Positions 12,686 through 37,385 of a DNA stretch of 64,000 nt are shown in pieces. The stretch comes from Rhodospirillaceae bacterium (GTDB lineage Bacteria; Pseudomonadota; Alphaproteobacteria; UBA6615). The first letter of the stretch is position 1. Each line of letters starts with the position of its first letter. The stretch is taken from assembly GCA_002713365.1 (NCBI GenBank), contig PASR01000011.1:406110-470109 (forward strand). Direction: 5' to 3'. The notes beneath the pieces were generated by a model, which saw nothing but the letters and a program-made list of their open reading frames with translations, was not told the origin of the DNA and searched no databases. The translations under genes and the position numbers were made by a program.

Positions 12686-13573
12686 TTGCCCGTATTTATT
12701 AGCAATATATTAAAGCGTTTAAATCCAAATATGCAGGGTATGTTGTTGATGTTTATGACATCAATAATGATAGTAACAATGCATACGTTTATTCGTGACT
12801 TAACTAGTCAATTGCCGCCTGTTGAAGTGGCTTTCTTTCGAAATTTATTTGGTCTTCCTATAGCCATTGGTCTTATCATTCATTATGGCTGGGGAGTATT
12901 TAGGACTGAACGGATACGTATACATGTCGTTAGGTCTGTGGGCCATTTTCTTGCAATGATTATGTTTTTTACCGGAATAGCAACTACTCCTTTGGCCACT
13001 GCTAATGCTCTGGGTTTTGCTGCCCCACTTTTTGCTGCTGCGCTTGCTACTCTCTTTCTTGGGGAATCATTTCGTTGGCGTAGATGGGGTGCTATGTTTT
13101 TTGGGTTTGCTGGTACTTTGGTGATATTACGCCCAGGTTTTGTTTCATTAGAATTTGGTCCATTAATGATATTATCATCGTCTTTCCTTTGGGGGGTAAT
13201 GTTAGTTGTAATTAAATCAATAGGGCGAAGTGATCCCTCGCCAACAATAGTGGTTTATATGCTGTTATTTATGACTCCATTATCTCTTGTCCCGGCTCTT
13301 TTCGTGTGGATTTGGCCTACTCCAGAACAAATTGTTATGCTGTTTATTATGGGAATGTTTGGCACAGCTGGCCAATTTGCATTAGCTCAGGCTTTGAGGT
13401 TGGCCGATACGGCAGTTGTCTTACCAATTGATTTTTTTAGATTAGTTTGGGCTTCATTATTTGGATATTTTTTATTTGCTGAAGTGCCAGATATTTTTAC
13501 ATGGATAGGTGGTATAATGATATTTACAGGGGCTACATATCTGGCCTTGCGTGAGAGAAATGAATCCCGTTAA
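12686..13573 (+). CDS. DMT-superfamily (EamA) transporter, TTG start
   Basis: This 295-aa membrane protein contains two EamA repeats, each of about five hydrophobic helices, as in drug/metabolite exporters. The first repeat carries the TPLATANALGFAAPLFAA segment and FRWRRWGA-type loop that mark this branch. The start is taken as TTG at 12686 because GGAG lies at 12675-12678 with a seven-base spacing, while the next ATG in frame (12731) lacks a ribosome site. Substrate and direction are not known. It is one of three DMT genes in 6.3 kb (see 13943-14848 and 18080-18964). Confidence 0.85.
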   Translation: MPVFISNILKRLNPNMQGMLLMFMTSIMIVTMHTFIRDLTSQLPPVEVAFFRNLFGLPIAIGLIIHYGWGVFRTERIRIHVVRSVGHFLAMIMFFTGIATTPLATANALGFAAPLFAAALATLFLGESFRWRRWGAMFFGFAGTLVILRPGFVSLEFGPLMILSSSFLWGVMLVVIKSIGRSDPSPTIVVYMLLFMTPLSLVPALFVWIWPTPEQIVMLFIMGMFGTAGQFALAQALRLADTAVVLPIDFFRLVWASLFGYFLFAEVPDIFTWIGGIMIFTGATYLALRERNESR

Positions 13574-13942: not shown

Positions 13943-14848
13943 TTATCGTAATAATAAGATAATTATTCCCAATACTACTAGAGAAATTCCAAATAATTCT
14001 ATTCTTGATATTTTTTCTTTAAAAATAAATGTAGATGTTATAATTGTGAAAACTAATTCGAGCTGTCCTAAAGCTCGGACTAAGGCAGCTTGTTGAATAG
14101 TCATTGCAGTGAACCAGCCAATAGATGCTAAAGCACCACACAAGCCCACCCACATAGAGATACGCCATGCTTTCAAACAATTAATAAGTTCTACTGGCTC
14201 CTTAATCCACATATATGTGGCCATAACAACTGTTTGAAATACCAATGCAAAAGCCAGTGTAAGTGAAGCTTGCATTATAAATCAACTTCCTCCCAGTGAG
14301 AGCGAAGCACCTCGATAAGAAACTGCCGCTATCCCAAATGATGCTCCTGAGGCTAGTCCTATTAGAGCTGGCTTTTCTGTCCACGAAGTAATTATTGCTT
14401 TGATCCCCAAAGGATTACGGGCGACAGAGATAAAAACTACTCCGACTAGGCTTACTAAAATCCCTATCGCCGCAAATAATGATATTGCTTCACCTAAGAA
14501 TATAATTCCAAATACAGCGGCTTGAACTGTTTCAGTCTTTGAGTATGTAGTGCCGACTGCAAAGTTACGTTTATCAAATAAGGATACAAGAAGTGCTGTA
14601 CCAAAGATTTGTGCCAGTCCTCCACTTATTACTATAAATAAAAATTGTAAATTTATTCTAGGTACTGTCAAATCAGTAAATATTATAAGCCCAAACAGGT
14701 ATAAAAGAGCGATAGGAAATCCATAGCCGAATCGTACGAAAGTTGCACCAGTAGTACCTAGCTGGTTTTTTAACTTCTTTTGTAGCATCATTCGCAAGTT
14801 CTGAAGAAATGCTGCAATAATAGTTAAAGGGATCCAGAGTAGGGACAT
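13943..14848 (-). pseudogene. DMT/EamA transporter interrupted by one in-frame TGA
   Basis: Two open segments (14282-14848, 188 aa, and 13943-14275, 110 aa) are in one reading frame, separated by TGA at 14282-14284 and two further codons. Joined, they give a protein of about 301 residues, the normal length of a ten-helix DMT transporter. The break falls in RGASLSLGGS-stop-FIMQASLTLAF, inside the second EamA repeat at the loop before the seventh helix. No base is missing or added. Neighbouring genes use TGA as an ordinary stop, so a nonsense mutation is the simplest reading. Translational readthrough, reinitiation at the ATG at 14275, or a base-call error are alternatives. It lies 37 nt upstream of the 77-aa gene. 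Confidence 0.78.
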
Positions 14849-18079: not shown

Positions 18080-18964
18080 ATGACTAATGATTTACCGCGT
18101 CCAACGGATGCCCTTTCTCGAGGTATTTTCATGATGTGTTTTGCCGTATTGTCTTTTGCGGCTATGAATACTTTTACTAAAGAACTAAGGCCGGAGTTAC
18201 CGGTTATTGTTATAATTTGGGGGCGTTATTTTTTTCACTTATTACTCATATTTGTTATGTTTCCCAGACGTATTCCTACATTGCTTCATATCCAAGACAA
18301 ATATTTACAGATAGTTCGTTCTGTTTTAGTTTTGTTGGCAACTGCTTGTATGTTTTTTGCTCTTGGGTTCATGCCATTAGCCGATGCGGTTGCGATAACA
18401 TTTGTTGCTCCATTGTTGATAGTTGCTCTATCTGCAGTATTTTTGCGAGAGGCTGTTGGTACCAGGAGATGGGGAGCGGTTATAGTAGGCTTTATAGGGG
18501 TCATGGTAATTATTAGGCCAGGGGCAGGTGCTTTCCAAATAGCAGCTTTGCTTCCACTAGCTTGCGCTCTTTGCTATGCTATATTCCAGATTTTAACACG
18601 GCTAATAAGTCATCGGTCGGATCCCCTAAATATGTTGTTTTATACTGCTGTTACGGGGGCTATTTTGATGACAGCCATTGTGCCTTTTAGCTGGCAAACA
18701 CCATCAAATGATCAGTGGTTAATGTTAATGGCGATAGGCTTACTTGGCGGTTTGGGGCATTACGCCTTAATTAGAGCTTATGAACGAAGTGAGACATCTC
18801 TAGTAGCACCTTTTGCTTATACAGAAATTATTTGGGCAACATTACTAGGGTTTATCGTTTTTGGCGATTTCCCTGACATATATACGTTTGCTGGGACTGC
18901 CATAATTATTGCAAGTGGTGTTTATATATTGCAAAGAGAACGGAAAGCTCGCTCAATTGTATAA
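18080..18964 (+). CDS. DMT-superfamily (EamA) transporter
   Basis: This 294-aa protein has two EamA repeats with about ten membrane helices. The first repeat ends with ADAVAITFVAPLLIVALSA and the conserved RRWGAVIVGFIGVMVIIRPG loop region, typical of RhaT/S-adenosylmethionine-type exporters. GGAG lies at 18066-18069 ahead of the ATG at 18080. Only 20 nt separate it from the LigI-like gene, so the pair is probably one operon. The substrate is not visible. Confidence 0.86.
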   Translation: MTNDLPRPTDALSRGIFMMCFAVLSFAAMNTFTKELRPELPVIVIIWGRYFFHLLLIFVMFPRRIPTLLHIQDKYLQIVRSVLVLLATACMFFALGFMPLADAVAITFVAPLLIVALSAVFLREAVGTRRWGAVIVGFIGVMVIIRPGAGAFQIAALLPLACALCYAIFQILTRLISHRSDPLNMLFYTAVTGAILMTAIVPFSWQTPSNDQWLMLMAIGLLGGLGHYALIRAYERSETSLVAPFAYTEIIWATLLGFIVFGDFPDIYTFAGTAIIIASGVYILQRERKARSIV

Positions 18965-35645: not shown

Positions 35646-37385
35646 ATGGAATGAAGTAAAACCGCTAATTATCAGTGGGATAAGTCAAAACTACCTAGTC
35701 GTCATGTATCGGTTGGAAACACTAGCGCTCCTCACAGAGCATTTTATTATGCCATGGGGATGACCGAGGAAGAAATTAGTCAACCTTTTGTGGGAGTAGT
35801 AACAACATGGAATGAAGCTGCTCCATGCAATATAGCTTTATCACGTCAAGCTCAGTCAGCTAAAAAAGGAGTGCAGGAAGCAGGTGGAACTCCTCGTGAG
35901 TTCACCACTATTACTGTTACTGATGGTATAGCTATGGGACATGATGGCATGAGGTCTTCTCTTGTTTCTCGTGAGGTTATTGCTGATTCGACGGAGTTGA
36001 CGGTCCGGGGACATGGTTATGATGCACTTGTAGGTTTAGCAGGATGTGATAAATCTTTGCCGGGACTTATGATGGCTATGTTACGACTTAATGTTCCATC
36101 AGTGTTTATGTATGGTGGAACAATTTTACCAGGAAAGTTCAAAGGAAAAGATATTACAATTATAGATGTCTTTGAGGGAGTGGGTGCAAATGCAGCAGGC
36201 AATATGTCACCAGAGGATTTACATGAACTAGAATGTTCTGCTTGTCCTTCTGCTGGAGCATGTGGTGGACAATTTACAGCTAATACTATGGCATGTGTTT
36301 CTGAAGCAATTGGATTAGCGCTTCCCGGCTCAGCCGGAGCGCCTGCGCCATATGAAAGCCGTGATGATTATGCAGTTGCAAGTGGTAAAGCGGTAATGGA
36401 GCTAATTAAGAAACAACTACTGCCGCGAAATATTGTAACTCGTAAATCATTCGAAAATGCTGCCGCTATAGTGGCTGCAACTGGAGGTTCAACCAATGCG
36501 GGCCTGCATCTTCCAGCTATGGCTAGTGAAGCGGGTATAGAATTTGATTTATTTGATGTATGTGATGTTATGCGCCGAACTCCCTTAATAGATGATTTAA
36601 AGCCTGGTGGCCGTTATGTTGCTAAAGATTTATTCGATGTTGGCGGGGTAGGTATTGTAATAAAGCAGCTCTTGGATGGTGGATTTATGCATGGAGACTG
36701 CATGACGGTTACAGGTAAAACGCTATCTGAAAATTATGAAAATGCTATTTTTCCAGAAAACCAGGATGTGGTAAGAAATATTAAAAACCCTATATCAGTG
36801 ACTGGTGGTGTGGTAGGCCTAAAAGGTAATTTAGCACCCCAAGGTGCTATTGTTAAAATTGCAGGTTTAAAATCATTAAAATTTACAGGGCCCGCACTAG
36901 TGTTTGAACGAGAAGAGGATTGTTTACAGGCAGTTTTAGAAGAAAATTATAAAGAAGGAGACGTCTTAGTCATAAGAAATGAAGGACCAAAGGGCGGACC
37001 TGGTATGCGCGAAATGCTCTCGACTACAGGAGCTTTGTATGGCCAAGAAATGGGAGAAAAGGTAGCTCTCATAACTGATGGTCGTTTTTCAGGGGGTACC
37101 CGTGGTTTTTGTATTGGACATGTGGGGCCTGAGTCGGCTTCAGGTGGCCCAATCGGTTTAATCGAGACTGGAGACATAATAACTATAGATGCGGAAGCTG
37201 GAACTTTATCGGTTGATTTGAGTGATCAAGAATTATCTGATCGATTTAATACCTGGAAATTAAGTCCTAATAACTACCAAGCTGGTACTCTATGGAAATA
37301 TGCTCAGACAGTTGGTGACGCAAGATATGGTGCTATTACACATCCAGGTGCAAAAGCAGAGACTCATACTTATGTCGATTTATAA
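35646..37385 (+). CDS. ilvD: Dihydroxy-acid dehydratase with an interrupted 5' end
   Basis: The open part from ATG 35754 encodes 543 aa of IlvD, which dehydrates dihydroxy-acids for valine, leucine and isoleucine. Fe-S ligands appear in [11 protein letters not shown] and [12 protein letters not shown], and the closing [16 protein letters not shown] block is intact. Family sequence continues upstream of 35754 for 33 codons (35655-35753), with [16 protein letters not shown], back to TGA at 35652-35654. Just before this is ATG GAA, placed six bases after AAGGAG. No usable start codon exists between the TGA and 35754. Either one base has been added or miscalled (ATGAAGTAAA for ATGAGTAAA), or the TGA is read through. 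Starting at 35754 would lose conserved residues. Confidence 0.85.

Follow-up and report, generated by a model that had tools for sequence, protein, structure and literature searches.

Transporters of the EamA/DMT family (PF00892) have about ten membrane helices, about 300 residues and two EamA repeats, and split EamA transporters exist in nature as pairs. In-frame UGA codons are a feature of bacterial selenoproteins, in which UGA is accompanied by a bSECIS, and of the Absconditabacteria/Gracilibacteria, in which UGA has been recoded to glycine. G>T base-call artefacts arising from oxidised guanine are treated, for example, in PMC12390751. Against this background we describe a transporter gene of the DMT family that is interrupted by one in-frame TGA in a 64-kb window (the whole stretch of DNA analyzed) of an alphaproteobacterial genome. 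We favor the view that this codon is a G>T consensus error of the assembly, a reading that comparison of sequences makes reasonably probable.

Reading frame of the interrupted transporter

The features of the gene are as follows.

13943..14848, minus strand: EamA/DMT-family transporter frame of 301 codons with a single interruption, supported by Pfam matches and full-length unsplit orthologues
14282..14284, minus strand: in-frame TGA at codon 189, where the closest relatives encode Gly (GGG, GGC, GGA)
14273..14275, minus strand: ATG (Met191), the first possible restart codon 3' of the TGA
14286..14293, minus strand: GGAGGAAG, a Shine-Dalgarno-like sequence 10 nt before ATG 14275

The first piece runs on the minus strand from ATG 14848 to the TGA at 14284-14282 (188 codons), after which the frame resumes in the same phase (TTT ATA ATG...) and continues to a TAA at 13943. 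Joined, the two pieces give 301 residues with 1 internal stop, and no second lesion besides the TGA is visible in the frame. This agrees with an earlier note on the same DNA, which had reported one frame on both sides of the TGA, a joined product of about 301 aa and no further lesion; its coordinates and its description are correct. Each piece matched the Pfam EamA profile (PF00892) above the gathering score. The read-through frame is collinear with its orthologues and can be aligned over its whole length with 301-residue relatives, and hence the two open reading frames are not paired by chance. The window contains three DMT-family transporter genes, two of them intact, in a span of ~6.3 kb (12686-13573, 13943-14848, and 18080-18964).

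The position of ATG 14275, six bases past the TGA and preceded by GGAGGAAG, could be taken to mean that translation stops and restarts, so that the halves are made separately and form a working split transporter of 6+4 helices, as in the natural pairs mentioned above. We consider this improbable. The cut falls within the second EamA repeat rather than at a repeat boundary, and the match of the second piece to the profile does not begin until position 33. The Met191 column is a conserved coding position (Met, Ile, or Val in most relatives) and not a conserved start; neither a split nor a conserved start at ATG 14275 occurs in any relative found (~100). GGAGGAAG encodes a conserved Gly-Gly, and its likeness to a Shine-Dalgarno sequence may for that reason be due to chance. 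Two other interrupted genes described below, ilvD and topA, are without a comparable restart that would preserve their conserved parts.

The transporter in related genomes

Orthologue searches covered 60 related genomes and a species-level genome collection and returned ~100 transporter orthologues of equal length, stop-free throughout. As the earlier note had proposed, we compared the codon in close relatives: it is GGG in G008 (78% identical) and GGC and GGA in the two congeners, versus TGA here. Across 105 informative relatives, in a count where a few loci represent the same genome present in two collections, the column holds Gly (90), Asp (7), His (4), Ala (2), Leu (1), and Thr (1). Relatives with the same split and a conserved second start, which that note had named as the evidence that would count against its account, were looked for, and 0 of the ~100 were split. 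Gene order around the transporter is common to the source genome and the congener MarineAlpha12_Bin1, and in both congeners the gene is unsplit and lies in conserved order. Because the relatives are unsplit and mostly carry Gly at the column, the stop is private to this assembly.

A stop confined to one genome could also be a recent and real nonsense mutation, either a strain polymorphism or a young pseudogene, in which case the gene is being lost and its product, truncated after six of ~ten membrane helices, would be non-functional. The single lesion in an otherwise well conserved frame is compatible with such an event, and the transporter looks dispensable, given three DMT genes within 6.3 kb. 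Four departures from near-invariant residues, compared with 0 to 1 in relatives, would fit a slight relaxation of constraint, but under a stricter invariance criterion and with more relatives only one departure besides the stop was left. We regard a real mutation as possible but unlikely, chiefly in view of the genes described next.

Stops in other genes of the source genome

The survey of the source genome comprised ~890 kb of sampled stretches. The interval C9:1-470109 was compared with orthologues in the congener G002 (291 orthologues, ~100,000 aligned residues), C6:1-400000 was scanned by composition, and a 20-kb stretch of C2 had been taken for another reason. The C9 comparison revealed single in-frame stops with conserved flanks in topA, gatA, ilvD, the DMT gene, and an mrpD-like gene; the reciprocal comparison found no mid-gene stop in G002. 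Judged against congener genes, the only in-gene stops within the 64-kb window are the transporter TGA and that of ilvD, which has the following features.

35646..37385, plus strand: ilvD (dihydroxy-acid dehydratase) frame including the interrupted first codons
35652..35654, plus strand: in-frame TGA interrupting ilvD at its third codon, which is GGA in both congeners

The ilvD gene begins ATG GAA TGA AGT here and ATG GAA GGA AGT in both congeners. The earlier note had described a TGA interrupting the ilvD leader; the TGA is present, but its site is codon 3 of the coding region. The proposed comparison with the transporter was well founded, since both TGAs stand in place of a glycine codon and differ from it by a single G>T change. 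After the TGA there is no in-frame ATG, GTG, or TTG before ATG 35754, and a start at that codon would cost the protein a conserved stretch.

In topA, a TGA is located at codon 118, C9:291268, in a column that is Gly in the five nearest relatives and Asn and Thr in the two congeners. Codon 83 of the same gene is CTA, which changes the invariant DPDREGE motif (R83L) and is also of the G>T type. The gatA stop is a TAA (C9:299337) at a glutamate invariant in 21 relatives. Both genes were identified by NCBIfam models on read-through, each is single-copy in the source genome, and both are normally essential. Two further cases came from the other contigs: livH has a TGA at C6:160914, within an invariant GGIGSIRGA motif where two homologues have Gly, and in a coxL-like gene on C2 a TGA occupies the position of a Gly in the large subunit of quinoline oxidoreductase. 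In two genes the change is not clearly G>T, namely the mrpD-like gene (stop at C9:388618, 15 codons before the gene end) and an mtnA-like gene (in-frame TAA at C9:340062). The latter looks degenerate, is diverged and under the NCBIfam cut-off, and may be a genuine pseudogene. An XdhC-like locus (C9:377261), at first a candidate for another lesion, was excluded as two normally separate genes.

No frameshift- or indel-type lesion stood out in the comparison of C9 with G002, which indicates that the error is of the substitution type. Misassembly or a frameshift was rejected as an explanation on the same grounds, together with intact synteny. It is the presence of the same class of stop in single-copy, normally essential topA and gatA, genes that cannot be lost, that places a consensus error ahead of the other readings. 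Gene decay, plausible for the transporter taken singly, would have to extend to topA, gatA, and ilvD, and the loss of all three is impossible.

A common G>T signature

The ancestral residue is clear for six genes, and in 6 of 6 a single G>T substitution would convert its codon into the stop (GGA>TGA in five and GAA>TAA in one); the mrpD-like and mtnA-like genes, being unclear, are left out of this count. Given the codon usage of the source genome, ~21% of the single-base routes that lead to a stop are G>T changes, and six of six has a probability of ~9e-5, a post hoc value that assumes equal rates per route and inferred ancestral codons. The share of GGA>TGA (five of six) is itself above the expectation for uniform G>T error (P ~0.009, post hoc). 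Where two guanines are adjacent, the 5' one is the better-known oxidation target, and its preferential oxidation would account for the excess of Gly-to-TGA changes.

Ordinary mutation would be expected to yield transitions, whereas there are 0 among the clear cases, all of which are G>T. Loss of MutY and Fpg produces a G>T mutator, but both genes were found with open frames, and a MutY/Fpg-deficient mutator was rejected. Missense changes of the G>T/C>A type within the window numbered 30 of 144 in the source genome and 5 of 86 in G008, a comparison confounded by AT-ward drift in base composition and not used as a test.

Isolated runs of N, 1 to 2 bases long, numbered 246 in a sampled 870 kb of the source genome, compared with none in G002. 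They cluster at C9:137-182 kb, at C9:293.9-295.9 kb, which lies between topA and gatA, and at C6:1-148 kb; the 64-kb window contains 0. At these sites G is the commonest readable congener base (16 of 43). By our own estimate, the observed rate would correspond to ~250 G>T errors genome-wide, or ~1 per 10,000 bases, which is a believable consensus error rate.

We therefore postulate that a single G>T change turned the glycine codon 189 (probably GGA) of an intact DMT gene into TGA, and that it was introduced in the sequence consensus through a damaged-base, low-depth, or strain-mixture base call. The TGA would then most likely be absent from the living cell and without function, and the same process appears to be the source of the stops in ilvD, topA, gatA, livH, and the coxL-like gene. 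We infer a technical rather than mutational origin and GGA as the ancestral codon. The earlier note had offered a fresh nonsense mutation, a strain polymorphism, or a readthrough codon: nonsense mutation stays the main rival, readthrough fares poorly for the reasons given below, and a consensus error, which that list did not contain, leads.

UGA decoding in the source genome

The source genome encodes SelA, SelB, SelD, and tRNA-Sec, and five of the six clear stops are UGA at a Gly position. These observations could be cited for reading the UGA through as selenocysteine, or for leaky UGA decoding tolerated at glycine codons. So could one credible selenoprotein in the genome, a PrdB/GrdB-like reductase subunit (G000:C2:61337-62569) whose in-frame TGA is read as U154 in the motif VPUPQC, of the form VPUPxC. 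Its gene lies near selA, selB, a SelD-oxidoreductase fusion, and tRNA-Sec, and it is probably a selenoprotein in a marine alphaproteobacterium.

For the transporter we judge readthrough of either kind very unlikely. The codon-189 column is Gly in relatives, with Cys or Sec in none, and on this composition selenocysteine was rejected. Folding after the transporter UGA gave a z of -1.37, which is weak evidence, as the plausible genuine Sec site gave +0.24 by the same test. RF2 is intact (SPF and GGQ present), and prfB (G000:C15) keeps its UGA-dependent programmed frameshift site, CGGAGGCATCTTTGAC (CTT TGA C), with the RF2 frame opening just after it. TGA terminates 44 of 242 orthologous genes at a place conserved with the congener. 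Among the 42 tRNA hits read, a UCA anticodon occurs in tRNA-Sec only. Thus neither a non-Sec UCA tRNA nor a loss or change of RF2 accompanies these codons, and glycine recoding was rejected on the basis of tRNAs, RF2, and gene ends. The gatA stop is a TAA, which is beyond what UGA decoding explains. Recoding, selenocysteine, and programmed readthrough are all poorly supported. A variant in which the stops are real and fixed and some UGA codons are read as glycine (or efficiently misread at glycine positions) while RF2 ends genes at other UGAs seems to us barely credible; if true, it would mean that an alphaproteobacterium possessing a full Sec system puts UGA to dual use.

Comparison with known systems

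The transporter stop is most likely ordinary and not new biology. If it is a consensus error, G>T errors in this assembly make false pseudogenes out of essential genes, and a screen for reassigned codons might take TGA at glycine positions, wrongly, as the mark of a new code. Were the stops real, the occurrence of UGA within topA and ilvD would make this alphaproteobacterium a striking case.

Among EamA/DMT transporters, the gene resembles its orthologues in bacteria of the same family (301 residues, 66 to 78% identical) in having EamA in both halves, and differs in the TGA at codon 189, the relatives found being uninterrupted. With bacterial selenoproteins it shares a source genome that holds the Sec machinery, but its column lacks a Cys or Sec homologue and no significant structure follows the UGA in a test of low power. 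Five genes with UGA at a position that is Gly in relatives recall the recoding of the Absconditabacteria/Gracilibacteria; here, however, RF2 is present and autoregulated through UGA, UGA serves as an ordinary stop, there is no tRNA-Gly(UCA), and one of the stops is a TAA. Artefacts of oxidised guanine have strand asymmetry among reads as their defining test; to appear in an assembly, such errors must have persisted into its consensus. The likeness lies in lesions that are substitutions only, in clear cases that are all G>T/C>A, and in their scatter through an assembly that also holds isolated ambiguous bases.
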